Positions 5,634 to 63,822 of a stretch of DNA of 64,000 nt are shown one piece after another (the stretch's first letter is position 1; each line of letters opens with the position of its first letter). The DNA comes from a virus. The stretch lies in the IMG/VR virus record IMGVR_UViG_3300029955_000013, positions 19,901 to 83,900 of that record. One strand, written 5' to 3'. The notes beneath the pieces are model-generated. The model saw nothing but the letters and a program-made list of their open reading frames with translations, was not told the origin of the DNA and did no database searches. The position numbers and the translations under genes were made by a program.

Positions 5634-8288
5634 ATGGCAAATAAAAAGAGTAATTTCTTCAACAATATGAGTAATTTCTTCAAAAAGGTCGACGGCAGCG
5701 ATCTGATGAAGTTTACAGACAACGGCATTAAGACGTTCGATACGCCTATCTCAAGGAGAGAACTCGATAAGAAAAGGGAACTCCAGGTGTTCAGGCAGTA
5801 CCTCCAGTCGAAGAACTGGACCCAGAAGCACATAGAGTTGTATGACGAATACAGGAGGATGGACAACACGTTCCCTATAATAAATGCAGCTATAAGGTTG
5901 TACGGCCAAGAGGTATGTTTGACTGGGGATACGATAGTTACCACGCCTGGCGGTGACAAGACCATAAGGGAGTTATACAATACTAAGAAGGACTCATTCT
6001 ACGTGAAGTCATTTGACAAGATGTTCAACAGGGTAGAGTGGAATGAGGCGACCAACATACAGAACAATGGTGTCAAGCCGGTATTCAAGGTTACCGTCGC
6101 GAGGAACATAAGCTACGACTCCGCGGAGTGGGACAACAAGCTCGAGGCGTCGTTCAAGTGCACCGACAACCACGAGATAATGGTCGGGCCTGGGTTGTTC
6201 AAGCAACTCAAGGACCTTAGGGTGGGCGACAAGATATGGTCTATGTATTACTCTGTAGACCCCGCATGTAGTTGTAAGGTGGCAAACTTCAACACTACTG
6301 TGATAGAGAGTATAGAATCGGCCGGCGAGGAGGAAGTATTCGATCTCGTACACGTGGTCCCTAACCACCACTTTATGATTAAGTTGACTGATAGCTTCTA
6401 TGTTAGCGTGCATAACTGTACGAAGGACACGGATGGTAACGTTATCAAGATCATAACGGAGGACAAGAGGATAAAGAAACTGCTCGAAGACTGCTTCTAC
6501 AAAAACCTAAAAATAAATTCAACATCGTATTACCACGTAAGGAGCCTGCTGAAATTCGGCAACCACTATTCCTTCTTGGACACGAGGCAGGGTGTAGGTG
6601 TACTTGATCTAATCCATCTGCCACCAGAGTCGATAAGGATACAACTTCTTGACAATTCAGCGAGCCTCGATGATTTCAAGTACACTTGGTACGGTCATGG
6701 TCTTGAGTTCGAGCCTTGGGAGATAGTTCACTGGAAGAACATAGAGGATCTTGAAACTGAGCCGTACGGCCAGTCGATCTTGAGGTCTATAGTAGACACC
6801 TACAGAAGGATAATACTGATGAGGGAGGCTATGATAATATACAGGATTACTCGTGCACCACAGAGGCTCCTTTTCAAAATAGATACTACTGGTCTTGGTG
6901 CTGACGATGCGCTTAGGTATGCTGCAGAGTTGAAGAAGCAGATGATGAAGAGGCCGCTTGTTAATCCAATGACAGGTGAGCTTGACTACAAGCATAATCC
7001 GATCTCTATTATGGAGAACCTTTACATGCCAACTGTTGAGGGTGATACGTCTGACGTTAGGGTGCTCGAAGGTGCAACTAATATGGGCGACCTCGAGGAC
7101 TACAAGATAATAAAGGACGATTTGTTTGCCGGCCTATTGATACCTAAGAGTTACTTGACGTTTGAGGAGGATTTGTGCCTTAGGGAGAACACAAAGATAC
7201 TTACCACAGACGGCGTCCTAACTATAGGCGAGATTTCGAGGCTCCTGGAGAGCGACGAGCCGAAGAAGATATACTCTTTATCTTCAAACAAGTATGGCAT
7301 CATACTTAGCGGCAAGATACTTTGGTGTAAAAAGACAAAAGTCGTGGATATGCTTTATAGGATAACCATAAATGGTAAGCACATAGTTGAATCGACGGAT
7401 AACCACCCATTCATGCTCGAAAACTTGAGCTACAGGAGGGCGGATGAGCTTAAGATCGGTGATAGGTTAAAAAACATATTTGATGAGGACTATTACGTTT
7501 CAGACATAGAGGTTTTGAATCTCGATGTCGAAGAATACGTGTATGACCTTGAGGTTGATGAGTATCACAACTTTGCTCTTGAGAGTGGTGTATTTGTTCA
7601 CAATAGTAACAAAGCCGCCCTCGCGCAAGAGGATTTGCGTTTCGCTGGTGCGATTAGGCAGTATCAGGGCAACTACATAGAGGGGTTGCTGCACATAGCA
7701 CTTGTCCATCTACACATGAATGGCTGTTCGCAAGAGGAACTCGGGTCGTTCCAGATACAGATGAACATAAACTCAACCCTTGCCGAGAAGACTAAGAATG
7801 AACTGTTGCAGCAGAGAATAGACCTTGTTAAGAGTGCTTGGGATCCTTCTAATCCTGGTCTAAATGTTATGTCTTACACTGATAGTTTGAAGGAGTTGCT
7901 TCACTACACCGACGAGGAGATTGAGAAGACTTTCAAGGACCAGATGATAGAGAAAAAGATAAACTGGAGACTTTCACAGTTGAATGAGAATGGGTTCTAC
8001 GAGGAGCCTGCAAGCGAGCAAAGGAAAGCATCGCTGCTTGGTATGAGCAGTGAGAACAACGTGTTTTCAAACCTTAACTTCGAGGGTGTTGATAGTACAC
8101 CAGATATTAAGAGAATACTAACAGAGAAGCTCAATATGGAAATAAATGCGTTGCTGCACAAGGTGACTGCGTCCCCGTCCTTGAAGATGATAGAGTCTGT
8201 TATAAGCGAGAATTATAATTATACGAGCAAGCTTAGCAAGACGAGGAGGAACGCAATACGTGTCAAGAAGGAATTGGGTCTCGATTAA
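5634..8288 (+). CDS. Portal protein (T4 gp20-like) interrupted by two mini-inteins
   Basis: 884 residues as encoded, about 574 after splicing. The host protein matches the gp20-type portal, the dodecameric ring at the DNA-packaging vertex: FPIINAAIRLYGQEV, then after splicing CTKDTDGNVIKI, then the YTWYGHGLEFEPWEIVHWKN wing, PYGQSILR, a long RLLFKIDTTG region, and a C-terminal half with KLNMEINALL. Intein 1 covers residues 95-261 (Cys1; ends His-Asn; next residue Cys). Intein 2 covers residues 515-657 (Cys1; ends His-Asn; next residue Ser). The start ATG lies directly behind a TATAAATA box (5625-5632). The nucleophiles and splice-site Asn residues are intact, so both should splice. Confidence 0.9.
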   Translation: MANKKSNFFNNMSNFFKKVDGSDLMKFTDNGIKTFDTPISRRELDKKRELQVFRQYLQSKNWTQKHIELYDEYRRMDNTFPIINAAIRLYGQEVCLTGDTIVTTPGGDKTIRELYNTKKDSFYVKSFDKMFNRVEWNEATNIQNNGVKPVFKVTVARNISYDSAEWDNKLEASFKCTDNHEIMVGPGLFKQLKDLRVGDKIWSMYYSVDPACSCKVANFNTTVIESIESAGEEEVFDLVHVVPNHHFMIKLTDSFYVSVHNCTKDTDGNVIKIITEDKRIKKLLEDCFYKNLKINSTSYYHVRSLLKFGNHYSFLDTRQGVGVLDLIHLPPESIRIQLLDNSASLDDFKYTWYGHGLEFEPWEIVHWKNIEDLETEPYGQSILRSIVDTYRRIILMREAMIIYRITRAPQRLLFKIDTTGLGADDALRYAAELKKQMMKRPLVNPMTGELDYKHNPISIMENLYMPTVEGDTSDVRVLEGATNMGDLEDYKIIKDDLFAGLLIPKSYLTFEEDLCLRENTKILTTDGVLTIGEISRLLESDEPKKIYSLSSNKYGIILSGKILWCKKTKVVDMLYRITINGKHIVESTDNHPFMLENLSYRRADELKIGDRLKNIFDEDYYVSDIEVLNLDVEEYVYDLEVDEYHNFALESGVFVHNSNKAALAQEDLRFAGAIRQYQGNYIEGLLHIALVHLHMNGCSQEELGSFQIQMNINSTLAEKTKNELLQQRIDLVKSAWDPSNPGLNVMSYTDSLKELLHYTDEEIEKTFKDQMIEKKINWRLSQLNENGFYEEPASEQRKASLLGMSSENNVFSNLNFEGVDSTPDIKRILTEKLNMEINALLHKVTASPSLKMIESVISENYNYTSKLSKTRRNAIRVKKELGLD
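5916..6416 (+). other. Mini-intein 1 within the portal gene
   Basis: 167 residues. Block A begins at Cys95 (CLTGDTIVTTPGG), block B includes CTDNHEIMV with the conserved His, block F is EEVFDLVHVVPNHHFMI and block G ends FYVSVHN before Cys262. There is no LAGLIDADG or HNH endonuclease domain, so it can splice but cannot home by itself. Confidence 0.9.
7176..7604 (+). other. Mini-intein 2 within the portal gene
   Basis: 143 residues. Block A starts at Cys515 (CLRENTKILTTDG), block B is STDNHPFML, block F is EYVYDLEVDEYHNFAL and block G is GVFVHN before Ser658. It also lacks an endonuclease domain. Its sequence differs clearly from intein 1, so it is not a recent copy. Confidence 0.9.
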
Positions 8289-8791: not shown

Positions 8792-9247
8792 ATGAGTCAG
8801 CCATCCGGTTTTAATACTTTTACTACTGATTACGACAAGGTTGATCTTATAGACATAAACACTTGGGCGTACAAGAAGACTTACGATGAGAAGCCTTTCC
8901 TTGTTGTGCCGAATTATAAGTTTAACTTAAAGCTCGGCGACACGATGCCTTGTTTCAGATGCTTCGTAAAGAAACTTGGGGAGCAATTCGGCGACCCAAT
9001 AACGTTGCCGAACTTGGACCAGTACGTTATATACTTGAATGTATTTAACTACAGCGACAACATAATATTCAAGGGCAGGATGAATATAGTTAATCTTTCG
9101 TTGGGTGAGCTTGGCTATCAGATGACGCACCTGGACTTCTCTTGCGCTGGTGTTTATTACGCCGAAGTGGAATTCACAGACCCTAACGGGATGATATTTA
9201 CGCTGCCGGACACGCATATTAAGTATGAAATAATAGTAAGAGAGTAA
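8792..9247 (+). CDS. Probable virion/baseplate protein, Ig-like
   Basis: 151 residues, first gene of an operon behind a TATTTAAA box (8773-8780). It has alternating beta strands ending GVYYAEVEFTDPNGMIFTLPDTHIKYEIIV, a pattern seen in N-terminal domains of phage baseplate upper proteins (BppU-like). The resemblance is weak; a virion role is inferred from the operon. Confidence 0.55.
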   Translation: MSQPSGFNTFTTDYDKVDLIDINTWAYKKTYDEKPFLVVPNYKFNLKLGDTMPCFRCFVKKLGEQFGDPITLPNLDQYVIYLNVFNYSDNIIFKGRMNIVNLSLGELGYQMTHLDFSCAGVYYAEVEFTDPNGMIFTLPDTHIKYEIIVRE

Positions 9248-23484: not shown

Positions 23485-23899
23485 GGGGCCAAACAGGTTA
23501 TCGACTTAACGGTGTATGAGTCAGTAGTCATGCAGGGACAATTCGAATTGAGTTCCTCTAATAAATACATTCGATGCTATAAACGCAAAAAACAAAAGAA
23601 TCGCTGAAGGCGGCGCAATTCTAAGAAACATTTTCAGCAAGTCCGAAGCACCTTGTGCTATCGCAGCCTAATAAGCTTGCTGGAGAGTGCGCAAACTACT
23701 AAGTGTTTGCCAAGTGTGGTCGGGTAAATGTGGTTTCGCTTTTCTGCCATTGAGCGTAACTGCAGCACTTAGCAAAATGCTGTTATACCGAGATATAAAT
23801 GCAATCTGATATTCTCCTGGAAGAAACCAGCGATAAGCATGTGAGTTCCTACAGAACGTAAACGTTAAACACGAGGGTTCGACTCCCTCTGGCTCCACC
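23485..23899 (+). ncRNA. ssrA: tmRNA (transfer-messenger RNA)
   Basis: The 5' end GGGGCCA pairs with TGGCTCC (23890-23896) to form a tRNA-like acceptor stem, and the T-arm GAGGG-TTCGACT-CCCTC sits just before it. An internal frame starts at GCA (23585), preceded by TATAAAC, and runs 28 codons to TAA TAA (23669); the tag starts AKNKRIAEGG and ends EAPCAIAA, close to the usual ALAA protease signal. Pseudoknot-prone GC-rich segments follow the tag. After the discriminator A the gene reads CCG, so CCA is not fully encoded. tmRNA frees stalled ribosomes and tags their products for Clp proteolysis. Confidence 0.9.
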
Positions 23900-23938
23900 G
23901 AACCTAAATTTAATAGTATTTAAAGTGTAAAGTTTTGA

Positions 23939-24862
23939 ATGAATTTGAATTTAGGTAAACAGAAATTTTTTGTGATCTATCAGATTACCAATTTATTGAA
24001 TGGTAAGATTTATGTCGGTGCACATTGTACTTATGATGTGAATGATAAGTACATGGGTAGCTCCAAACACCTCAAAAAAGATATTAAAGAGTTAGGCCGA
24101 CAGAATTTTGCGAAGGAGATTTTACATGTCTTTGACAATAAAGAAGACATGATGGCAAAAGAGGCAGAAATTGTTGATCAAGAGTTCTGTCATCGAACTG
24201 ATACTTACAATCGTATGATTGGCGGGATAACAGAAATGTTATGGAATAATATGGTTTCGGTTCGAGATAAGGATGGAAACTATTTGAAAGTGTATAATGA
24301 TGATCCGCGTTATCTTTCCGGAGAATTTGTTGGTTGTACTAATGGTTTTGTTCCAGTAAAAGATGTTGAAGGAAATTTTTTACAAGTTGCTAAAGATGAC
24401 CCACGTTATTTGTCTGGTGAATTAGTTAGTTCTGCAAAAGGAATTTTTAACGCCAAGGATAAAGACGGTAATGTTTATCAAATCAGTAATAAAGATATAA
24501 GGTGGTTATCTGGAGAGTTGGTTGGATTAACTGCTGGTTTACATGGCAATTGTGCGTTCAGTGGTAAAAAACATTCAGAAGAAACAAAAGCCAAGATCGG
24601 AAAGAAAAATTCTTTAGCTCAAAGTGGAAGTGGTAATTCAATGTTTGGTAAAAAGCAAACAAAAGAATCTAACGATAAACGGCTTGATAAGATGGGTAAA
24701 AGTTTTTTTGTATTTGATACTGATGGCAATTTTATTTCGCAAGAATTTGGAATAAATCAATATGCGAATAAAAATAACTTAACTGCCACAAGCATTGTTC
24801 AGTGTTTGAAAGGTAAACAAATAAGTCATAAAGGTTTTAAGTTTTTATACGAAAATATTTGA
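23939..24862 (+). CDS. GIY-YIG homing endonuclease with NUMOD-type DNA-binding modules
   Basis: 307 residues. The GIY-YIG catalytic domain covers about 1-95 (FFVIYQITNLLNGKIYVGAH, then KEILHVFDNKEDMMAKEAEIV with catalytic Glu). Three tandem repeats of about 34 residues follow (pattern V/A-K/R-D-x-D/E-GN-x-x-x-x-x-x-DPRYLSGE, residues about 105-200), then NUMOD3-like helices (FSGKKHSEETKAKIGKKN, SMFGKKQTKESNDKR) and a NUMOD1-like helix-turn-helix end. Codon use is T/A-ending, unlike the C/G-ending virion genes, so recent acquisition is likely. It lies 40 bases after the tmRNA with its own TATTTAAA box. Confidence 0.88.
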   Translation: MNLNLGKQKFFVIYQITNLLNGKIYVGAHCTYDVNDKYMGSSKHLKKDIKELGRQNFAKEILHVFDNKEDMMAKEAEIVDQEFCHRTDTYNRMIGGITEMLWNNMVSVRDKDGNYLKVYNDDPRYLSGEFVGCTNGFVPVKDVEGNFLQVAKDDPRYLSGELVSSAKGIFNAKDKDGNVYQISNKDIRWLSGELVGLTAGLHGNCAFSGKKHSEETKAKIGKKNSLAQSGSGNSMFGKKQTKESNDKRLDKMGKSFFVFDTDGNFISQEFGINQYANKNNLTATSIVQCLKGKQISHKGFKFLYENI

Positions 24863-25171: not shown

Positions 25172-25351
25172 ATGTATGTAGTTATATTCATTTTTACGGT
25201 AGGAATGCTTTTGGTAATTGAACGGTTAATAAAGCGAACACTCGAGGTCAAGCAACATTTGTTTGGTCTCAGGGATGAATTCAAAAAATTAACCGACGAT
25301 ATGATTAAAAGTGATTTTGCTATGAATGAAAAGGCTGCTCTACAAGATTAA
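25172..25351 (+). CDS. Small membrane-anchored helical protein
   Basis: 59 residues from the ATG at 25172 (an earlier TTG lies inside the terminator). One membrane span (YVVIFIFTVGMLLVIE) and a charged helix follow. It overlaps the next small gene by 26 bases. Confidence 0.5.
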   Translation: MYVVIFIFTVGMLLVIERLIKRTLEVKQHLFGLRDEFKKLTDDMIKSDFAMNEKAALQD

Positions 25352-30778: not shown

Positions 30779-31651
30779 ATGAACACACGTATTGCGCCTT
30801 CCCCAACAGGCTTTTTTCATCTGGGGACTGCACGGACAGCTTATCACAACTGGCTTGTGGCTCGCGCAACGGGTGGCTTGTTCACCCTGAGGATCGACGA
30901 CACCGACGACGACAGGAACGATGAGGGTCATGTACAGATGATCTACGACTGCATGGACTGGCTTGGTCTCGATTATGACGATACTTTCAGGCAGAGCGAC
31001 CGGAACAAGATTTATGTTGATTACGCTCAGTTCCTTTTGGACATTGATTATGCTACTGTTGCCGACAATGGTGCTATAATGTTTAGATTTCGTGATGAAG
31101 ATTTAATTCACTTTTTTAACGACACTATCGCCGGCAAGATAGAAACTAAGCAGGATGACATCGACAATCTTAGGAGCCTTGTTCTTATGAAGTCTGATGG
31201 TAACCCTACTTATAACTTCTGTTCCATTGTCGACGACTACCTAAGCAAGATAGACTGGATAATTCGTGGCGCCGATCACATAAAGAATACGATAAAACAG
31301 CTACATGTCATAGAGGCAGTTCAGTCTTTGGATAATCCGGTTAATTATTGGAAACCAAAGTTCACCCATGTGGGCCTTATACACGACATGAGCAACAAGA
31401 AGCTGTCCAAGAGGACCGGTGCGAAAAGCGTGCTCGACTACAAGAACGAAGGCGTAAAGCCGGGTGCTCTGCTCAACACGCTGCTTAGGATTGGCTGGGC
31501 GCCTACCGACCCGAACTTCGACTCGAAGCATAAGATCGTGACGAAGGACATGGCGGTGGACATGATACTCAAGGAAGGTAACTTCAGGTCTGCTCCCGGT
31601 AAGTTCGATCCGATGAAACTCGCATACTACAATAAAAAGCATAGTAATTAA
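30779..31651 (+). CDS. Glutamyl-tRNA synthetase catalytic core (class I, truncated type)
   Basis: 290 residues. The start RIAPSPTGFFHLGTART carries the HIGH signature as HLGT (14-17), RIDDTD (38-43) matches the RIEDTD strand, GNPTYNF (141-147) and DWIIRGADHIKNTIKQ line the active site, and KLSKR (208-212) is the KMSKS loop. A complete GluRS has about 470-500 residues; the C-terminal anticodon-binding domains are missing, as in the GluRS-like enzyme that modifies tRNA-Asp. Three tRNA-Glu genes lie within 3.3 kb upstream. It may charge them or modify a tRNA. Confidence 0.85.
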   Translation: MNTRIAPSPTGFFHLGTARTAYHNWLVARATGGLFTLRIDDTDDDRNDEGHVQMIYDCMDWLGLDYDDTFRQSDRNKIYVDYAQFLLDIDYATVADNGAIMFRFRDEDLIHFFNDTIAGKIETKQDDIDNLRSLVLMKSDGNPTYNFCSIVDDYLSKIDWIIRGADHIKNTIKQLHVIEAVQSLDNPVNYWKPKFTHVGLIHDMSNKKLSKRTGAKSVLDYKNEGVKPGALLNTLLRIGWAPTDPNFDSKHKIVTKDMAVDMILKEGNFRSAPGKFDPMKLAYYNKKHSN

Positions 31652-33973: not shown

Positions 33974-35185
33974 ATGGTTTCTAAATTCGCAATGGACGAC
34001 GCTTATGCTGTACAGGCAGACATTATAGAAGGTTGGTACACGAAGTACAAGTCCATGGATTTGCCTAACGGCTTCAAGAGGGTGTTGTATAGCTTTTCTA
34101 AAAGCGGCGTATCTGTTGCTCTCGGCAGGAATGAAAAATACGGGTATTTCATCTGCGCTTACGGTCAGGGCGAATATTCTTTCGTGATGACAGAAGCTGA
34201 TAGCGAGAACATTCCTGCCGAGGAAGTCTTTGACGTTAAAACTAAGGAAGGATTTATAAAGCATTTCGAGAGGTTTTGCAGGGAGTATAATTACTTGGAT
34301 TTCGAGGTAGTCGATAATGTAAGAGCCTATGATGACACGACGCTTTTCTGCCCGGCCGGGATGCAGAAGTATAAGAACGTGTTTAAGGCGGAGTGCCCAG
34401 AGGATGCTGACAAGGCCGTAAGGCGTCAGTACATGAAGCTAAATGAGAGTGTTATAGCAAATATTCAACCTTGCATAAGGATGAACGATTTGGATGATAT
34501 TGGTGACGGCACGCATTTGCTTTACTTCAACATGATGGGCCTTTTTGCATTTAGGACTCCTGGCTTTGGTGTTAGGCATGCTGTAAAATTTTGGCTTGAT
34601 TTCCTTGAGACGATCGGCTTGAAACCGGATCTTGTTACTGTCCACCCAGACAAGCAAGATTGGATATTTTATTACCAAGATGAAACGGTAGAGCAGAAAT
34701 ATGTAGACGATTTTCTTCAGTATAACGGGCCTGATTTCCTGCTCGATCCAGATTGCACGTGGACTGATGGCGAGATTGGAGGTTACTGTACGGAGTTCTA
34801 CATAAAGGACGTGGAGATAGGCAACATTGTGAATCCGCTTGGTAACTGCATAGATTGCGGCTTTGGCCTCGAGAGGATTCTGTATATACTCAATAATGAG
34901 TTGACTATCGCAACCGATTTGGACACGCTTAAGGAAACCATACTTAAGATATTAGACAGCGGTTACACGCCATCTAATCTCAAACAGGGCTATGTTTTAA
35001 GGAAGCTGTTGAGGGAGTTCGTCAAGAAGGGCGGCGAGATGGATCACGAGGTGTTTCTCGACGAGAAGGATAGGCAGCGAAAAATATATGACAGGTGGCT
35101 GCTGCTCAAGGATAAGCACAAGGACAAGAGCCCTGAATGGTGGTATGATACGCACGGGATTGATTTGAAAATGATAAACGGTTAA
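33974..35185 (+). CDS. Alanyl-tRNA synthetase-like class II core with N-terminal extension
   Basis: 403 residues. Residues about 1-95 are an extra domain not seen in AlaRS. From about 120 the AlaRS pattern is clear: DDTTLFCPAGMQKYKNVF (usual form DPTLLFTNAGMNQFK), then QPCIRMNDLDDIGDGTHLLYFNMMGLFAF (165-193, motif 2) and GNCIDCGFGLERILYI (motif 3). The editing and C-terminal oligomerisation domains of the roughly 870-residue enzyme are missing. No tRNA-Ala is seen in the window, so it may act on the host tRNA or on one outside. Confidence 0.75.
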   Translation: MVSKFAMDDAYAVQADIIEGWYTKYKSMDLPNGFKRVLYSFSKSGVSVALGRNEKYGYFICAYGQGEYSFVMTEADSENIPAEEVFDVKTKEGFIKHFERFCREYNYLDFEVVDNVRAYDDTTLFCPAGMQKYKNVFKAECPEDADKAVRRQYMKLNESVIANIQPCIRMNDLDDIGDGTHLLYFNMMGLFAFRTPGFGVRHAVKFWLDFLETIGLKPDLVTVHPDKQDWIFYYQDETVEQKYVDDFLQYNGPDFLLDPDCTWTDGEIGGYCTEFYIKDVEIGNIVNPLGNCIDCGFGLERILYILNNELTIATDLDTLKETILKILDSGYTPSNLKQGYVLRKLLREFVKKGGEMDHEVFLDEKDRQRKIYDRWLLLKDKHKDKSPEWWYDTHGIDLKMING

Positions 35186-36975: not shown

Positions 36976-38142
36976 ATGAAAGTAGATGTTAACCAGTTCA
37001 AGGAGATACCTTCTCCTCACGGAGTTGGATTGTGTGTCTACGGCGGCATGAGCGATGAAATCAAGGCATGGACCGAGTATCACGATATAAAGACAGAATT
37101 CCACGGAAGATTTACTAATTTTCTGTTTGACGGCCAGGATCTCGATAATTGTTTCAACGAGGGGAAGGTGTACGATTACGTGGATGGTTTTTCGCCGAAT
37201 CTTAATAAGCATTTGCACCTCGGTCATGCGTCTAATTTTGTAATAGCGAAAGCGTTGCAGAACATGGGAATTGGCAAGAAGTACATTGCGAACCTTGGTG
37301 ATACTGTTACTGGAGCTGTTGATAAGTTCGAGGCGCTCGAGGCTTTGAGTGACCTTTGGGACAAGTTTGATTACAAGGTCGATAAGATTTACTTCGCTAC
37401 ACAATTGGTAGGCGATGTTGAGATGGAGGATGGTACTGGCGATTATGTCGGCACGAAGGTTTTCGACGTGAACGGTCAGAAGATAGTTGGCCAGAAGAGC
37501 AACGGTAATTATAGTTACTTTTACCATGACGTCGTTCTCGCGAGCAAGTTGAAAGGCGAGACTCTGTATATGACCGGTTTCGAGCAGAAGGAGCACTTTG
37601 AGAGCTTGAAGTGTCTTTACCCCGGCACTAACCACCTGATGCTTGGCCTCGTGACGATCGACGGCAGGAAGATGTCGAGTAGCGAGGGTAACGTGATTAT
37701 GTTGGCGGACGTCATGGACACGCTCAGGACCGAATTTGGAGACGATCACCTTGCTTGGAATGTTTTGAGTGGTTATATACTCAAGTCAGACGTGGACTCG
37801 GTTAAGGACATCAATATGGCCAACATAGACAACCCACGACAGTCTCTCGGTTTGTACTTCAGTTACACGCTCGCAAAGTTGAAGAGCGCCGGCATGAATG
37901 TGGAGCTGAAGGAAAAGTTTAATTCTTTTCGGATGCAGTACAAGTTCTTGAAGGCAAAGACGAACCTGCAGCCGAGAATATTGTTCGACGGCATTTTCGA
38001 TGTTGCAAAGAAGATTAGTACTCTATACGTAAACCACCACATAGCAGGCAACAAGAAAAACCAGGAGCTGTACCAGCCTTTGATGGAGGATTTGCTGCTC
38101 GGCATGGTAAAGCTTGGCATGTTTGACGTAGATAAGGTTTAA
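36976..38142 (+). CDS. Arginyl-tRNA synthetase-like class I core
   Basis: 388 residues. YVDGFSPNLNKHLHLGHASNFVIAKAL (about 67-95) is the ArgRS opening with HLGH at 81-84 as HIGH; ANLGDTVTGAVDKFEAL follows; GLVTIDGRKMSSSEGNVI carries KMSSS at 232-236. The C-terminal 140 residues are helical as in the ArgRS anticodon-binding domain but shorter; bacterial ArgRS is about 550-590 residues. No tRNA-Arg is seen in the window although AGG codons are common, so it may charge a host tRNA. Confidence 0.78.
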   Translation: MKVDVNQFKEIPSPHGVGLCVYGGMSDEIKAWTEYHDIKTEFHGRFTNFLFDGQDLDNCFNEGKVYDYVDGFSPNLNKHLHLGHASNFVIAKALQNMGIGKKYIANLGDTVTGAVDKFEALEALSDLWDKFDYKVDKIYFATQLVGDVEMEDGTGDYVGTKVFDVNGQKIVGQKSNGNYSYFYHDVVLASKLKGETLYMTGFEQKEHFESLKCLYPGTNHLMLGLVTIDGRKMSSSEGNVIMLADVMDTLRTEFGDDHLAWNVLSGYILKSDVDSVKDINMANIDNPRQSLGLYFSYTLAKLKSAGMNVELKEKFNSFRMQYKFLKAKTNLQPRILFDGIFDVAKKISTLYVNHHIAGNKKNQELYQPLMEDLLLGMVKLGMFDVDKV

Positions 38143-51089: not shown

Positions 51090-51440
51090 ATGGAATTTGA
51101 GCTTTTCACAGTCATCAGTATAGACGACAGCAATTGCATCGTTTTTATAAATAACTACGAGCGTCCTGATGCCGTTTTGGTTGATTTGCAAGACCAGCTT
51201 CGTACGCTCGATTTCAACGGCGAGGTTTATTTTGATCTGCTTCTTCCGAACGGCCCAAGTCAAAGGTTCTTTTCAATGAACTTCGACGGCTACGTATTTG
51301 AGCTGAATACGATGAAAGCATTGGAGTTTGTGCCGGACGATGTGTTTGGTGTATCGAGTAAGTACTTCAAGGAGAACAAGCATTTGTTGGGACGAGGCGT
51401 TTTGCTGAAGTATCAGATTGAAGAGTTTATGAATGCTTAA
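51090..51440 (+). CDS. Protein of unknown function (weak RnlB-like features)
   Basis: 116 residues. Beta-rich with LRTLDFNGEVYFDLLLPNGPSQRFFSMNFDGYVFEL, which slightly recalls RnlB-type antitoxins. The likeness is weak and no toxin partner is seen. Between two Ser tRNAs. Confidence 0.45.
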   Translation: MEFELFTVISIDDSNCIVFINNYERPDAVLVDLQDQLRTLDFNGEVYFDLLLPNGPSQRFFSMNFDGYVFELNTMKALEFVPDDVFGVSSKYFKENKHLLGRGVLLKYQIEEFMNA

Positions 51441-53791: not shown

Positions 53792-55486
53792 ATGAATCTA
53801 CACGATCTAAACATATACTTACAACAGGTCAAAAATGCTAATAGGCCGCTCGTGTTAGATCCGAGAATAAAGCTTTCAATACCGCAGCAGGAGGCCATAG
53901 AAATTGGCGGTGGTGGAGGCATAGTAGAAATCGCTCTCGCGGACATTACAACTCTCATAAGTACTTCTTCTTTATCGCCAGGCACTTACTACGTTATTAG
54001 TGGCGTCGACGTCGGTTTATACGGAGGCACGACGATAATACTGCAAGCTATTACGGCTTCATACATGGCGCAGTCCGGCTTCGGACAGTTCCAGAACCCT
54101 TTGTATTCATCGTATTCGATGTGGGATCCAGGCAACTCATACGAGACCGGCATGTACGCGATATGGGGCGGCAAGGTTTGGGTGAGCAGCAACGGCGAGA
54201 CAGGCAGCTCTATAGACCGCTTTAACCTTGATGATAACTGGACGGTAGTCAACGACCAATCTTTCTACAATACGGTTTGGGACCAGATAACTTATTCTTT
54301 TCAGTTTGATTTCATTACATCAAGGTTTGACGTAAACGTGAACAATTATGTCGCATGCGATTACGTCTCCAATGAGTGGTTCGAGGAAGGAACTCGTTCT
54401 ATAGCCGTGTTCAAATGGGGTTACTATTCGAATTTCGAGCAGGTAGTTTCTGATTGCTTCATAGAGAACTCTTACATAGATTGTTTGAACGTGCTTGGCT
54501 CGATCCAGAACTTGAACATGACAAACTACAGCTACGTTTCTGGCCTATACCTCGACGCCGACTCCATATTCGGCGTGGCGAACATAGAGAATTTTTGCTA
54601 CATAACGGGGATAACGATAACAGGCTCTGAGGTTTATAATTTGCATTTGAACAACGCGAGCTATATGTCGAGTGTTACTTTTGCCAATGCTTCTGTTTTA
54701 AACCTTGATATGTTCAACGAGTCCTCAATTAGCGACAGCACGATTACTTCTGGTGCTTTTGAGGACGTTTTATTGTCGAACACCTCTATTTGGACTAATA
54801 ATAATCTGACGAGTAGCACTGTAAACGGGTGTGTCTTCGTTAATAATTCTTACTTGGGTTCGAACACGTTAAACAGTTCTGAGATGAACAACGTGAACCT
54901 TGACGGCTCTTCTATTGGCTCTTTGAATTTGACGGAATCTTACATAAACTTTTTGTACATGAGGGATGGAGAGTTTGGCAACTTTACCACCACTTCTTCT
55001 ACTCTGAACAATGTGTTTATTGATGCTTTTACTGTTTATCCGGCATCTGTAGACGGAATAATTTGGGGCGTTGCGAGGTTCATAGTTAACACGATCAATT
55101 ACCAGTTTGGCTTAAGCTTTAGCGGTGATGATGGCGCAGGTGGCATAGGAGCCATAACGTTGCCTTATATGATGGTGCCTGGCGGCTTCTACATCGAGAG
55201 GGTTATAATAAGCCAGCAGAACATGGCTGGAGATCCAGGGGCTGTCATCAACCTCGGCATATCAAACGGGACCGGTACGGAAGGAATCAACAACACCACT
55301 GGCTTGAAGTCAAACCTCGACAACAAGATTTCCTATTTCGACATGTCTAACGGCTTGGTGTCCGGCCTGCCGTCCGGAGGTATGAGTACTATAGTCGCGT
55401 CAGTCCAGAATGACGTAATATCTGAAGGCACCTGGGAGGTTGAGATAGTCTTAAAAAATATTAATTATGTTTCAACAAACGAATAA
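53792..55486 (+). CDS. Beta-helix tail fibre or adhesion protein
   Basis: 564 residues. An N-terminal attachment part (residues 1-80), a middle (about 180-420) of repeated short turns such as NLHLNNASYMSSVTFANASVLNLDMFNESSISDSTI and NNVNLDGSSIGSLNLTESYI, the pattern of a right-handed parallel beta-helix, and a C-terminal jelly-roll-like domain (GGFYIERVIISQQ ... GTWEVEIVLKNI). Such proteins bind or cleave cell-surface polymers. A TATTTAAA box lies 16 bases before the ATG. It stands apart from the other fibre genes. Confidence 0.7.
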   Translation: MNLHDLNIYLQQVKNANRPLVLDPRIKLSIPQQEAIEIGGGGGIVEIALADITTLISTSSLSPGTYYVISGVDVGLYGGTTIILQAITASYMAQSGFGQFQNPLYSSYSMWDPGNSYETGMYAIWGGKVWVSSNGETGSSIDRFNLDDNWTVVNDQSFYNTVWDQITYSFQFDFITSRFDVNVNNYVACDYVSNEWFEEGTRSIAVFKWGYYSNFEQVVSDCFIENSYIDCLNVLGSIQNLNMTNYSYVSGLYLDADSIFGVANIENFCYITGITITGSEVYNLHLNNASYMSSVTFANASVLNLDMFNESSISDSTITSGAFEDVLLSNTSIWTNNNLTSSTVNGCVFVNNSYLGSNTLNSSEMNNVNLDGSSIGSLNLTESYINFLYMRDGEFGNFTTTSSTLNNVFIDAFTVYPASVDGIIWGVARFIVNTINYQFGLSFSGDDGAGGIGAITLPYMMVPGGFYIERVIISQQNMAGDPGAVINLGISNGTGTEGINNTTGLKSNLDNKISYFDMSNGLVSGLPSGGMSTIVASVQNDVISEGTWEVEIVLKNINYVSTNE

Positions 55487-55788
55487 TGGGCAAACACAAA
55501 GATCTTATTAACGCTGTTAAGAAGGACAGCTTCGATAAAAACAAAAAATTGCTCGTGCAGCCGAACGAAAAAACCATGAAGATAGCTGTCGCCGACTTTA
55601 TCACGTTCGTGTCTAAGGTCTACAAGAGCACTTCGGCCCAAGCTATGAACGCAATAACGAATGGCGACGTATCAGTTAACGGCGAGATAGTGAGCGTGAC
55701 TACATACATAGTTAAGGCTGGTGATGTGGTTAGGGTGGACATAGGCCACTACCTAAGGAATTCTGGGTACATGGCTGTGGCCGAGTAA
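55486..55788 (+). CDS. Second small S4-like RNA-binding protein
   Basis: 100 residues. FVSKVYKSTSAQAMNAITNGDVSVNGEIVSVTTYIVKAGDVVRVDIG matches the S4 pattern (helix, then G-x-V-x-VNG-x-x-V ... K-x-GD-x-V-x-V). The N-terminus is basic (MGKHKDLINAVKKDSFDKNKK). It starts in TAATGG overlap with the fibre gene. It may bind rRNA or tRNA. Confidence 0.6.
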   Translation: MGKHKDLINAVKKDSFDKNKKLLVQPNEKTMKIAVADFITFVSKVYKSTSAQAMNAITNGDVSVNGEIVSVTTYIVKAGDVVRVDIGHYLRNSGYMAVAE

Positions 55789-55831: not shown

Positions 55832-56287
55832 ATGGAAGCGAGAACAATAAAATCTACCAAGAGGATAGCCCTCGTAGCACACGACAACAAGAAAGCCGAC
55901 CTGGTCGACTGGGCGGTCTTCAACAAGACGACGCTTTCTAAGCACGAAATATATGCCACTGGCACTACTGGCAAGCTGCTCGAGGATAATCTCGGCATAG
56001 AGGTTGTAAAGCTAATGAGCGGGCCTTACGGTGGCGACCAGCAGATAGGATCTATGATCGCAGAGGGAAACCTCGACATGCTTATCTTCTTCTGGGATCC
56101 TCTCGAGGCTCAGCCGCATGATAGCGATGTTAAGGCGCTGCTTAGGCTTGGCGTTCTGTGGAACATACCGATAGCGTGCTGCAGGTCTACTGCCGATTTT
56201 ATTCTAACATCGAAGCTGATGGACCAGGATTATGAGCCTTTCCTTCCGGATTATGGCACTTACCTTTCGAGGGATGATAAAAATTAA
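55832..56287 (+). CDS. mgsA: Methylglyoxal synthase
   Basis: 151 residues, the usual length. All catalytic features are present: [11 protein letters not shown] with His17, [10 protein letters not shown] phosphate loop (41-50), [16 protein letters not shown] with Asp69 as base, [21 protein letters not shown] with His96 and Asp99, and CRSTADFI. The enzyme converts dihydroxyacetone phosphate to methylglyoxal and phosphate, a bypass of lower glycolysis that releases phosphate and makes a toxic aldehyde. It is followed after 3 bases by a nucleotidase gene. Rare as a phage metabolic gene. Confidence 0.92.
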
Positions 56288-56290
56288 TAT

Positions 56291-56734
56291 ATGAGGCGAA
56301 TTTACGTGGACATGGATGACACACTCTGCAAGTTTATGCAGAGGTACCAGGAGATGATGCAAAAGAACCCGTCTATACGCTACCCCCAGTCGCAATACGG
56401 CTTCTTTACGGACCTCGAGCCGATAGACGACGCAATATCAAGCATGCACACGTTGCGCGAGGTGTATGACGTCTGGATACTCACCAGGCCGTCCTACATG
56501 AATCCGCTGTGCTACACCGAGAAGAGGGTTTGGGTGGAGAAGCACTTAGGCATCAATTTTTGCAAGAAGCTGATACTTTGCCCGGATAAGTCTTTATTGA
56601 AGGGTGATTACCTCATTGACGACATAAAGTGGCCTGGTTTCGAGGGTGAGCAGATACTTTTCGGGTCTGAGAAGTATAGGAATTGGAAAGCTGTAATAGA
56701 TTACTTATATTGGGATAAATACTGGGAGAGGTAA
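56291..56734 (+). CDS. HAD-family 5'(3')-deoxyribonucleotidase-like
   Basis: 147 residues. DMDDTLCKF (7-15) gives the nucleophile and acid/base Asp pair, ILTRPS is motif II, and LLKGDYLIDDIKWPGF provides the motif III Lys and motif IV acidic residues. Family members remove phosphate from (deoxy)nucleoside monophosphates. It overlaps the next gene by one base (TAATGG). Confidence 0.82.
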   Translation: MRRIYVDMDDTLCKFMQRYQEMMQKNPSIRYPQSQYGFFTDLEPIDDAISSMHTLREVYDVWILTRPSYMNPLCYTEKRVWVEKHLGINFCKKLILCPDKSLLKGDYLIDDIKWPGFEGEQILFGSEKYRNWKAVIDYLYWDKYWER

Positions 56735-56925
56735 TGGAAAAATACAAGGGTTATACCGAGGAGGATGGCATAGTGTACGTGCAGGATCCGGTATCCGGCC
56801 ACTACACTGTTTTCCTCGCAAGAAGGCCTTACGTCATTGCTGAGGATGAAACAAAAGAGAAGGCGAAAGATCGACTTATGAACTTACTTGATATATTTGT
56901 AGACATGGAGGGACTGAACAGATGA
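56734..56925 (+). CDS. HicB-like or small beta-rich protein
   Basis: 63 residues. YKGYTEEDGIVYVQDPVSGHYTVFLARRPYVIAEDETKEKAKDRLMNLLDIFV has the strand-strand-helix order of HicB-like domains. No toxin partner. It overlaps the next gene by 4 bases. Confidence 0.5.
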   Translation: MEKYKGYTEEDGIVYVQDPVSGHYTVFLARRPYVIAEDETKEKAKDRLMNLLDIFVDMEGLNR

Positions 56926-57182
56926 TAGCTAATTGGATGGTGCTTTGTTATAAGGATAACGGGCCTGTGGAAGACGGCAGGAACATAATCGTAAAGCACA
57001 CTTGTGTGTATGAGGACGAGCCGAACGATAATGACATAACAAGTCTCATTAACGAGCTTAGCACTGTTGCAGACTTCGGTATGGTTGGTGACGAGGATTA
57101 CGATATGGCCAAGTTCAATCGCAATACTGAAATGGGTCAGTTCTGGTTTAAGCAGATGAATATACCAGAGGGGATAATTTAA
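56922..57182 (+). CDS. Small acidic protein, unknown
   Basis: 86 residues, acidic, Asn/Asp-rich (VYEDEPNDNDITSLINELSTVADFGMVGDEDYDMAKF). In an operon between nucleotide-metabolism genes. No family recognised. Confidence 0.5.
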   Translation: MIANWMVLCYKDNGPVEDGRNIIVKHTCVYEDEPNDNDITSLINELSTVADFGMVGDEDYDMAKFNRNTEMGQFWFKQMNIPEGII

Positions 57183-57190
57183 AAGATTTA

Positions 57191-57586
57191 ATGGCAAGAA
57201 TATTTTTGGGCGGAACATGTAACAATTCTACATGGAGAGATGATTTGATTAAGAAGTTGGAAGTAGATTACTTTAATCCAGTAGTACCAGACTGGACGGA
57301 GGAGGCTTACCAACAGGAGTTGGCAGAGCGAGAAACTTGTGACAAGTGTTTGTATGTGATAACGCCTAAGATGACAGGCGTTTATTCGATAGCTGAAGTA
57401 GTTGATGATTCGAATAAGAGGCCTGAAAAGACCGTGTTTTGTTTCATTGGATTCGATCAGGGGTTGGCCTTCGACAAGGGACAGGCCAAGAGCCTCGACA
57501 AGGTTGGCGTGATGGTCGAAAGCAATGGCGGCAAGTACTTAAAGACGCTTGATCAGGTTGCCAATTATCTCAACAGCAGTATATAA
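57191..57586 (+). CDS. Nucleoside 2-deoxyribosyltransferase-like protein
   Basis: 131 residues. RIFLGGTCNNSTWRDDLIKKLEVDYFNPVVPDWTEEAYQQELAERETCD and YVITPKMTGVYSIAEVVDDSN match the deoxyribosyltransferase-like family (GGTCN start, NPVVPDW, Y-x-I-[ST]-P, S-x-A-E with catalytic Glu). Such proteins cleave or swap the N-glycosidic bond of deoxynucleosides or nucleotides. Grouped with nucleotidase and RdgB-like genes. Confidence 0.8.
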   Translation: MARIFLGGTCNNSTWRDDLIKKLEVDYFNPVVPDWTEEAYQQELAERETCDKCLYVITPKMTGVYSIAEVVDDSNKRPEKTVFCFIGFDQGLAFDKGQAKSLDKVGVMVESNGGKYLKTLDQVANYLNSSI

Positions 57587-58049: not shown

Positions 58050-58197
58050 TTTAAATAATACAACGCTCCGTGCGTCTGAAGGTAGGGCCGAAAGGTTAGC
58101 ACCGTTCCCGTATTATTAAAGTGCGATTTTCAACTCACCCCGCCTGGGATAGCATCCCAGGTCCGACCATCCTCACGAGGGATGGTTTCTTTTTTTT
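58050..58197 (+). ncRNA. Candidate structured RNA ending in a terminator
   Basis: AATAATAC (58054-58061) pairs with GTATTATT (58110-58117) and encloses two hairpins, ACGC-TCCGT-GCGT (58063-58075) and a GAAA-loop hairpin between GGT (58081) and ACC (58101), giving a three-way junction. Two more hairpins follow: CCTGGGAT/ATCCCAGG (58143-58161) and the terminator. No open frame fits. No known riboswitch class was recognised. Confidence 0.55.
58166..58197 (+). terminator. Intrinsic terminator
   Basis: ACCATCC (58166-58172) pairs with GGATGGT (58180-58186), followed by a long T-run. Confidence 0.85.
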
Positions 58198-58246: not shown

Positions 58247-58825
58247 ATGGACAAGCCGTCTCTGATATTCGCCACGAACAACCAGGACAAGATAAGGGAA
58301 GTTGTTTCATACTTGGGCGACACGTTCGACGTGATAACGCTCAAGCAGGCCAACATCGACATAGACATCCCGGAACCGTACGACACAATACAGGAAAACG
58401 CTTTTATCAAGGCGAAGACTATCTACAACATGACCGGCAATAACTGCTTTAGCGAAGACACCGGCTTCTTCGTTGACGCATTGTACGGCAAACCCGGCGT
58501 TAAGGCGGCAAGGTATGCCGGCGAAAAGGCCACGTACCAGCAGAATATCGACAAGATGCTTTCAGAAATGCAAGGAAAGGCTAACAGGAGGGCCTATTTC
58601 AGGACGTGCATGATACTGCTGGTTAATGGTGTTCAGTATTCATTCGAAGGCGATTGTTTCGGCACCATAACCGAAGAACGACACGGCACCGGCTTTGGCT
58701 ACGATCCAATTTTTATACCTGATGGCGCCGATAAGACCTTCTCTGAAATGGACGTGAGCGAAAAAGCCCTGTACAGCCATAGGATTAGTGCGCTTAAGAA
58801 AATGATTAGTTTTCTCGGTAGGTAA
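58247..58825 (+). CDS. rdgB: dITP/XTP pyrophosphatase (RdgB/HAM1 family)
   Basis: 192 residues, full family length. LIFATNNQDKIREV gives the ATxNxxK-type substrate loop, IPEPYDTIQENAFIKAKTIY the metal-binding Glu, FSEDTGFFVDALYGKPGVKAARYAG the catalytic Asp, GTGFGYDPIFIPDG the base pocket and SHRISALKKM the closing SHR motif. The enzyme cleaves dITP and XTP to monophosphates and keeps deaminated bases out of DNA. It is a single gene between two terminators. Confidence 0.9.
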   Translation: MDKPSLIFATNNQDKIREVVSYLGDTFDVITLKQANIDIDIPEPYDTIQENAFIKAKTIYNMTGNNCFSEDTGFFVDALYGKPGVKAARYAGEKATYQQNIDKMLSEMQGKANRRAYFRTCMILLVNGVQYSFEGDCFGTITEERHGTGFGYDPIFIPDGADKTFSEMDVSEKALYSHRISALKKMISFLGR

Positions 58826-61351: not shown

Positions 61352-62668
61352 ATGTATTACAGGCTATATCCGTGCAAAAACAATACCATATTTAAGTATA
61401 CGCAGTCAGATGGCGTATCAGACGTTGCATGGTCTACCAGCATCAATACTGGCCAGAGCTCGATAATGGAGATGCAGGACGGTGCCGGCCAGAGTCGTTT
61501 ACTGTTCGGTTTCGACATACCGGCTTGGCTGAGCAGTAAGCTGACTGACTATAGCTTTACGGCTAACTTGAAGCTTTTCGATGCTGGCGCGTTGTACAAC
61601 AGCCTTGCTGCGCTGAAGAATGTTACATTAAATTTATTTTACAACGATTTCAGCGAGGGTGACGGCTGGTCTTTCCTACAACCAACTGCGATCTCCGAAA
61701 CCTCAAACTGGGGTTTCAGTCAGGACGGTATCGCTTGGGACTTCACTACCTTCCAGAAGATAACGGATTACTTCCCCAACAGTTTCCATGAGGATTTTGT
61801 TTTCGACGTTAGCGCCGCTTTTGCTCAGGCTGTGTCGTTAAACGATTCGCCTAATTTTTCCTTAAACATAACGGATCACGCTTATGCAGCAAACGTGCAA
61901 GCCAAGTTCATATACAGCAAGTATACGAGGACGGTTTTCCAGCCTTATGTAGAGTTTTTTATAAATGACGAGATTATAGATGGGTGCTTTAATATGACTG
62001 CTGGGTTGTCTAATAAGATATTCTTTGTGAATGAGAACGGCATGGACTTCTCTGGCGTCATAACAGCAACCGCAATACTTAACAGCAATACGATCGTTAA
62101 TCTATCCTCCACCAAGGTTTCAACTGGTGTTTATTACGTAGAAGTAATACCTGCCGAGCCAATGTACTCTAACAAGAAGGAGTACGTCATATTGACATGG
62201 CAGATTGGTGGCGTTGACTACTACAAGCAGACTATACAGGTACAGCCGCAGAACAAGCTGTCCACTGGCCCTAACCTGGCGAATCTGTTCTTCTATCCGG
62301 CCACTCCATACTCACACAACATCGTTAGGCAGGGTGACATAATGCCGTTCGAAGTCGTTTCGCAGATAAGAGGTTCTGGCAATATAGTAGACACTGATTA
62401 TCAGTTCAAAGTGGTCACTATGGATGGCTTCGAGATGATACCTTGGATGCCGGTTAGTACGTACAGGGAGAAGATGTACTTTTTCATCGACACTTCCTTC
62501 TTTTTCCCGGAGCAGACATACGAGGTGATAACGAGGAACGTGAAACCTAACTTCACAATATCCTCTAATCTGACTTATAAATTCCAGCTGGTGCAAGACG
62601 CGCAGAGTCAATTGAGGGAGCTCAACGCGAGCCCTTACTATGCCAGGGATTCATTCTTTTCAAAATAA
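61352..62668 (+). CDS. Large virion surface protein, DNRLRE-like start
   Basis: 438 residues. The N-terminal 200 residues (DNTIF-like KNNTIFKYTQSDGVSDVAWS, QSRLLFGFDIPAWL, SFTANLKLFDAG, FDVSAAFAQAVSL) follow the pattern of DNRLRE-type beta-sandwich domains. Ig-like domains follow (GVYYVEVIPAEPMYSNKKEYVILTWQIGG). A role as a virion or tail surface protein is inferred from position in the operon. Confidence 0.6.
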   Translation: MYYRLYPCKNNTIFKYTQSDGVSDVAWSTSINTGQSSIMEMQDGAGQSRLLFGFDIPAWLSSKLTDYSFTANLKLFDAGALYNSLAALKNVTLNLFYNDFSEGDGWSFLQPTAISETSNWGFSQDGIAWDFTTFQKITDYFPNSFHEDFVFDVSAAFAQAVSLNDSPNFSLNITDHAYAANVQAKFIYSKYTRTVFQPYVEFFINDEIIDGCFNMTAGLSNKIFFVNENGMDFSGVITATAILNSNTIVNLSSTKVSTGVYYVEVIPAEPMYSNKKEYVILTWQIGGVDYYKQTIQVQPQNKLSTGPNLANLFFYPATPYSHNIVRQGDIMPFEVVSQIRGSGNIVDTDYQFKVVTMDGFEMIPWMPVSTYREKMYFFIDTSFFFPEQTYEVITRNVKPNFTISSNLTYKFQLVQDAQSQLRELNASPYYARDSFFSK

Positions 62669-62673
62669 CAAAA

Positions 62674-63822
62674 ATGCAGAATCAATTACTTAAGTACATC
62701 ATAACAGACAACACCGTTGACAATAACTATGCTATAAATCCTACTAAGCAACAGTTGTTTTACGTACCGAAGGAAGAGAGCCAGATGATAACCGGGAAGA
62801 CGTTTAGTTTTACCGGCACGAGGCCGGTCGGCTACAACAACGACCCGCTTAACGAGACTGTAAACAGGGACTCTACCGTAGCTAATGGAATTACGGCGAA
62901 CACCTCCTTTACCGATACTGATTACGTGGGGTTGTCTGTATACGACGTGCCTACATTTCTCGTGGAGGGTTATTACGATTTCACGATTATAGACCTCATA
63001 AGGACGAGGAATATGATAGTGAACACGACCAATAACTATTTGACCAACGTAGCAAATGGCATACAGTTAATAAGGGTGCCTTCTGGTTTGTTAAATGTGG
63101 TGCTGACTGACGCGACGGCTATAGCAGCGAACAACGGCAGCACTCTGAAAAAATACTACGGCGATTACTACTTTACCATAACGCCTAAGTTCTTTACGAC
63201 TTCCGTTATCGCCGTGGATAGCAGGGGTCAGTATGACACTAACAATTTGAACGATGATGTTAATAGTACGGATCCTGATAACATAGTTCCTACATACAAG
63301 AGGAGAACCGTCTACGAGTGCAACAAGACAGATGGTCTTGGACTATTGTGGAACTTTGAGCAGAATGGTTTGCAGTCGGGCAGGCTGATAGGCTCTGTTG
63401 TCGAAGTGTGGGACTCTTCGCAAACCGTGTTGAAGCAAGTGAAGGTGATAAACGAAAGCGAGTTTAATTTCACAGACGTCTCGAAGAACTTTAATATCGT
63501 TATGAGTCCCGACACTGTAGGGTATGATTCGCCCGTTCAGGCAGTTGGTGTCGGTGACGTGCTTAAGATATACCCGAGAGAAACGAGCTTTAACCAATTG
63601 ACGATACTGCTGTCTTACCAGAACCAATCAACGCAAACTTCGAGCGCGCTATCATTTTTGATGAATGACGTTGCGAGGGACATGACCACCGGTGTGTATG
63701 AAATATACGACAGCAACGGTATTACTATAGACTCGAGCGGTAATTTCAACGGCAATGTAATTCAGCAGTACCAAATAACGCAAGTAAACGGTTACGAGAT
63801 AAGAAAGAGAATAAATGGCTAA
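62674..63822 (+). CDS. Virion structural protein, unknown family
   Basis: 382 residues, beta-rich with few Cys and many Asn/Thr/Tyr (TSFTDTDYVGLSVYDVPTFLVEGYYDFTIID, YYFTITPKFFTTSVIAVDS). It starts 5 bases after the previous gene and overlaps the next by 8 bases, so it belongs to the same structural operon. No family recognised. Confidence 0.6.
   Translation: MQNQLLKYIITDNTVDNNYAINPTKQQLFYVPKEESQMITGKTFSFTGTRPVGYNNDPLNETVNRDSTVANGITANTSFTDTDYVGLSVYDVPTFLVEGYYDFTIIDLIRTRNMIVNTTNNYLTNVANGIQLIRVPSGLLNVVLTDATAIAANNGSTLKKYYGDYYFTITPKFFTTSVIAVDSRGQYDTNNLNDDVNSTDPDNIVPTYKRRTVYECNKTDGLGLLWNFEQNGLQSGRLIGSVVEVWDSSQTVLKQVKVINESEFNFTDVSKNFNIVMSPDTVGYDSPVQAVGVGDVLKIYPRETSFNQLTILLSYQNQSTQTSSALSFLMNDVARDMTTGVYEIYDSNGITIDSSGNFNGNVIQQYQITQVNGYEIRKRING

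Follow-up and report, generated by a model that had tools for sequence, protein, structure and literature searches.

An intact methylglyoxal synthase gene next to a deoxyribonucleotidase-like gene in phage DNA

Methylglyoxal synthase (MGS) acts on dihydroxyacetone phosphate (DHAP), which loses its phosphate to give methylglyoxal, and the roles of H98, K23, S65 and T45-G49 in the enzyme have been described (PMC7843640). In most microorganisms, though not in all, MGS is strongly inhibited by phosphate (PMC8600716). Two metagenome surveys have counted the gene, mgsA, among viral auxiliary metabolic genes (PMC8066274, PMC11252502), and a literature search, with subscription papers largely outside its scope, returned no functional study of a viral MGS. 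The question at stake is whether sugar phosphates serve phages as a source of phosphate, and a phage-made metabolite that is toxic and diverts glycolysis would be an unusual form of control over host metabolism.

The DNA studied here (the window) is a 64 kb stretch of an 83.9 kb IMG/VR record. An open reading frame on its plus strand, at 55832..56287, runs from an ATG at 55832 to a TAA at 56285-56287 through 151 codons with no internal stop, and encodes an intact MGS of the long form (mgsA-like, 151 aa). The protein exceeded both NCBIfam equivalog cutoffs for MGS (NF003559, 209.5 bits, 1.7e-62, cutoff 84; TIGR00160, 179 bits, cutoff 146.9), scores that rule out a chance reading frame, and it matched the Pfam MGS profile at 62.7 bits and the closest solved MGS structure, by sequence, with an E value of 1.5e-57. 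A search of PHROGs gave no match to the protein. Alignment, numbered after the E. coli sequence, showed that H19, D20, K23, T45-T48, S65-P67, G70, D71, D91, H98, D101 and R107 are all kept, so that the catalytic set (D71, D101, D20, D91, H19 and H98) and the phosphate site (K23, T45-T48 and S65) are complete. A tyrosine occupies the position of E. coli Met68 in the SGP(M/L)GGD loop, and among the viral and bacterial residues listed this was seen in the phage protein only. An AlphaFold2 model of the monomer (pLDDT 89.2) superposed on the Elizabethkingia enzyme 6phe (TM 0.86, 60% identity) and on E. coli 1b93 (TM 0.86), with carbamoyl-phosphate synthetase (CPSase) and PurH as more distant fold matches. 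The intact frame, the equivalog scores returned by the profile search and the complete residue set uphold the original prediction of a full-length MGS with all its catalytic residues, and the enzyme is predicted to be active.

The position of the gene within phage DNA was established from its flanks. To the left lies a portal protein gene (5634..8288, plus strand; phrog_213, 2.6e-41), and to the right, at 61352..63822 on the same strand, lie two genes that sit near the portal in the related records G002 and G003 (41-46% identity, same order in both). In those two relatives the portal gene and the genes at 8792, 61352, 62674 and 63815 have homologs that form one block, while in the window ~50 kb of accessory DNA carrying the MGS gene separates the portal-side genes from those at 61352, 62674 and 63815. 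Because this accessory DNA splits the structural block, the MGS gene has phage genes on both sides within a single contig. Another IMG/VR record, G001, matches window positions 1-25184 and a further 19.9 kb upstream at 99.98% identity; it stops at 25184, before the MGS gene, and so confirms the left part of the contig only. The MGS gene has a GC3 of 0.583, equal within error to the phage mean of 0.590 (SD 0.05). The phage genes on either side, the G001 record and the synteny with G002 and G003 ruled out host contamination or misassembly, and the proposal that the gene is phage-encoded withstood this check for host DNA. The fragments G001-G004 may not cover the MGS locus, and its absence from them is uninformative. 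Together with the portal, the window carries a tmRNA, 27 tRNAs, aminoacyl-tRNA synthetase-like genes, an RNA ligase and other phage genes, and the phage is probably a large phage of Bacteroidota.

Several other features of this DNA were recorded. The portal gene seemingly contains two intein-like insertions, judged by eye from Cys...HN motifs. The ~50 kb of accessory DNA (9667-61351) holds the 27 tRNAs, the tmRNA, the synthetase-like genes and the MGS operon; a GIY-YIG/NUMOD3 homing-endonuclease-like gene comes right after the tmRNA (23485-24862, plus strand, for the pair). The synthetase-like genes (30779-31651, 33974-35185 and 36976-38142, all plus strand) comprise one of Glu/Gln type, one probably of Ala type and what is probably a class I enzyme; they look short for such enzymes and are possibly trimmed or specialised. 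An RnlB antitoxin homolog (51090-51440, plus strand; PF15933, 65.7 bits, cutoff 27) also lies in this tRNA-rich region. The Dmd protein of phage T4 neutralises RnlA/RNase LS-type defence, and by analogy the RnlB homolog could act against such a defence in the host.

The MGS gene sits in a compact set of plus-strand genes. Immediately upstream is an S4-domain protein gene (55486..55788; PF01479, 24.7 bits, cutoff 22.8). Downstream, starting 3 bp past the MGS stop codon, is a gene for a 147-aa 5'(3')-deoxyribonucleotidase-like HAD phosphatase, here NT5C (56291..56734; PF06941, 59.3 bits; phrog_2643). Its HAD motifs DxD, T, K and DD were invariant across 14 phage homologs, and its AlphaFold2 model (pLDDT 94.8) had as best PDB match the deoxyribonucleotidase-like protein 3bwv (TMq 0.82). 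The suggestion that MGS shares an operon with a nucleotidase agrees with this spacing and with the PF06941 match, and the two genes are probably co-transcribed. Two small open reading frames with no Pfam match follow, one of 63 aa (56734..56925) overlapping the NT5C stop by 1 base and one of 86 aa (56922..57182) whose start overlaps the stop of the 63-aa frame, and then a nucleoside 2-deoxyribosyltransferase-like gene (57191..57586; PF15891, 42.2 bits, cutoff 30). Beyond these lies a Ham1/RdgB-type (d)ITP/XTP pyrophosphatase gene (58247..58825; PF01725, 192 bits; TIGR00042 over cutoff), the product of which is 57% identical to Chitinophaga Ham1; a search with Ham1 found no viral relative. Between the operon and Ham1, at 58165..58187 on the plus strand, a terminator-like hairpin of a 9-pair stem and then the T-run TCTTTTTTTT was recognised by consensus match only, and it is possible that Ham1 is transcribed apart from the MGS operon. 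Of 23 phage loci that are related or carry NT5C, none had an MGS, and NT5C was absent from 80 MGS loci.

The nearest cellular proteins to the phage MGS were those of Chitinophagaceae, at 70-72% identity. In a tree of 174 sequences the phage protein grouped with Segetibacter sequences (SH-aLRT 91) within the Chitinophagaceae set, apart from the main viral clades and as a lone viral branch. This placement points to a separate acquisition from Chitinophagaceae, and a Bacteroidota host is likely. An MGS above the cutoff was present in only 30 of 150 Chitinophagales genomes, so that for some hosts the reaction would be new. Scans of IMG/VR with an exact 34-mer of the MGS gene and with a nearby structural gene both found no close kin with the same locus.

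MGS relatives are nevertheless widespread among viruses. A profile scan of IMG/VR found at least 367 stretches that encode them, many on contigs of 200-545 kb, the viral status of the contigs being that given by IMG/VR. In the same tree most viral sequences fell into three large clades of 43, 14 and 14 sequences (SH-aLRT 99, 99 and 98), the others forming single lineages. Several viral acquisitions are likely, since the virus label required eight changes on the tree, only two of which are forced by strongly supported branches. All 93 distinct viral sequences keep H19, D20, K23, T45, G46, T48, S65, G66 and P67, and likewise G70, D71, D91, H98, D101 and R107; these tallies include two isolate-genome records that were not relied on as viral, L001, where the gene is at a contig end, and L256. 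Within the large short-form clade dN/dS was ~0.01-0.14, and synonymous sites were saturated in many of the pairs; the values indicate purifying selection. In one viral clade (L260, L261, L269, L276-L279 and L293) long stretches are inserted ahead of the SGPLGGD loop and CDN replaces WDP, with the catalytic residues retained. Among cultured phages in GenBank, only 22 unannotated fragments matched MGS, at <60% identity, and some of these may be host DNA. As a family, the viral enzymes are numerous, well conserved and of long standing in phages. The novelty implied by the original prediction was overstated, because mgsA had already been listed on viral DNA (PMC8066274, PMC11252502) and hundreds of IMG/VR stretches carry an MGS gene; the single gene is of less interest than the breadth of its family and the phosphoesterases that recur beside it.

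At 12 of 40 distinct viral loci, a calcineurin-like phosphoesterase gene (PF00149) starts between -1 and 20 bp downstream of MGS. The enzymes belong to two sequence classes; the gene downstream of MGS in L276 was grouped by BLAST with one of the classes and, having no Pfam match, was not counted as PF00149. PF00149 was the sole Pfam family to recur among immediate neighbours (4 of 45 unrelated clusters, representatives scanned; one of the four is at a long-form MGS locus, L238), and it was present in at most 1 of 89 non-adjacent control clusters, an upper bound drawn from the 25 of 67 control families listed. A one-sided Fisher calculation by hand gave p ~0.04 with one control match and ~0.01 with none, a modest effect in a test chosen after the pattern had been noticed. 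Genes for RNA ligase, cREC (cyclic-phosphate receiver domain) and HAD_SAK, which belong to RNA repair, also lie near PF00149 at viral MGS loci, and for this reason the phosphoesterases might serve RNA repair. The recurrence of PF00149 fits, and does not prove, a role for viral MGS in phosphate release and nucleotide turnover. Separately, one immediate neighbour of a viral MGS gene matched the Thoeris inhibitor Tad3 (PF25185, 9.6e-23) and one matched the NADAR domain (PF08719, 4.3e-27).

The best-supported interpretation of these data, to which we give an even chance, is that a working MGS was taken by the phage from a Chitinophagaceae-type Bacteroidota host and retained as an auxiliary metabolic gene within a module for phosphate release and nucleotide turnover. 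During infection MGS would convert DHAP to methylglyoxal and free phosphate, the probably co-transcribed deoxyribonucleotidase would split dNMP into deoxynucleoside and phosphate, and the two, with the nearby nucleoside-handling enzymes, would sustain the phosphate supply and the glycolytic flux at a time when phosphate is being locked into nucleic acids. Methylglyoxal would be disposed of by the host's own pathways; this step, the enzymatic activity, the co-transcription and the phosphate role are what we infer. The tight spacing of MGS with NT5C and the deoxyribosyltransferase-like gene counts in favour of the module, and so do the family and fold, the residues kept in all 93 viral sequences, the low dN/dS of the large viral clade, the scarcity of MGS in Chitinophagales genomes and the failure to find a glyoxalase in the 32 window frames scanned together. 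Against it count the pairing with NT5C at this locus only, the modest and after-the-fact enrichment of PF00149, the possible service of PF00149 in RNA repair and the fact that phosphate inhibition is not universal. Where that inhibition holds, as in most microorganisms, the enzyme would act when phosphate is low (PMC8600716). With this behaviour and the recurrence of PF00149 beside other viral MGS genes, phosphate salvage, one of the two purposes first suggested for the gene, stands as its most plausible role, albeit by inference. It could also be that MGS, widespread and acquired repeatedly, forms the core of a strategy of phosphate release in large phages, paired with a phosphohydrolase of either kind (PF00149 or NT5C), a generalisation that we put forward as tentative and rather doubtful. 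If it is true, such pairs free phosphate from metabolites of the infected host, a strategy of which no description was found in the literature.

The same enzyme with the same residues could also serve to reroute glycolysis, bypassing its lower part and drawing DHAP off the routes to glycerol-3-phosphate and lipids; glyoxalases of the host would convert methylglyoxal to D-lactate and pyruvate, and phosphate would be a by-product. A methylglyoxal route in Salmonella helps the cell use glucose while other steps are under repression (PMC12096831). However, the recurring neighbours of viral MGS are phosphoesterases and not carbon-metabolism genes, and no lactate or glyoxalase gene was seen in the phage reading frames scanned (for glyoxalase, 32 window frames scanned together, short frames being partly covered); we consider rerouting possible but distinctly less than probable. 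Methylglyoxal is also toxic and reacts with DNA and protein (PMC12096831), and its build-up might halt the host or co-infecting phages, the other purpose originally suggested. It would, however, damage phage DNA and virion proteins too, and with no protective glyoxalase in the scanned frames and no defence-like context specific to the MGS gene, sabotage of host or rivals found no specific evidence and is very unlikely.

The tyrosine at the Met68 position, beside the active-site loop and peculiar to this protein among the residues listed, might alter the kinetics, or the protein might be a non-catalytic sensor of nucleotides or phosphate like the MGS domains of CPSase and PurH, which were among its more distant fold matches. 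Retention of every catalytic residue and scores above both equivalog cutoffs make either form of this reading highly improbable. Finally, the gene might be a passenger, picked up by accident along with accessory DNA and hardly useful to the phage, as its lone viral branch and its place in a variable region, absent at the corresponding position in relatives, would allow. Its intact frame, phage-like GC3 and fit within the operon, together with the purifying selection on the wider viral family, speak against this and leave it very unlikely.

The mgsA genes of the Lake Baikal and deep-sea brine pool surveys (PMC8066274, PMC11252502) were called on viral scaffolds or genomes, where the phage MGS lies too, but are survey listings without comparison, context or test. 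Bacterial long-form MgsA (EC 4.2.3.3; E. coli 1b93, Thermotoga 1vmd and Elizabethkingia 6phe) has the same length and fold and the same catalytic and phosphate-site residues, at 50-60% identity to the solved enzymes; the phage MGS differs in its phage location, in the tyrosine for Met68 and in an aspartate at E. coli Arg150. The enzymes of Chitinophagaceae come closest in sequence (up to 72% identity, and the grouping with Segetibacter), and the phage MGS is set apart from them by its operon with NT5C and its long end branch (0.53). Phage 5'(3')-deoxyribonucleotidases (phrog_2643) share HAD motifs and fold with the neighbouring gene, but their coupling to MGS was seen in this contig only. The short-form viral clade from IMG/VR resembles the phage MGS in its large-phage contigs, catalytic residues and enzyme family and has phosphoesterase neighbours, whereas its members are 120-135 aa long, form a separate clade (SH-aLRT 99) and are paired with PF00149 instead of NT5C.
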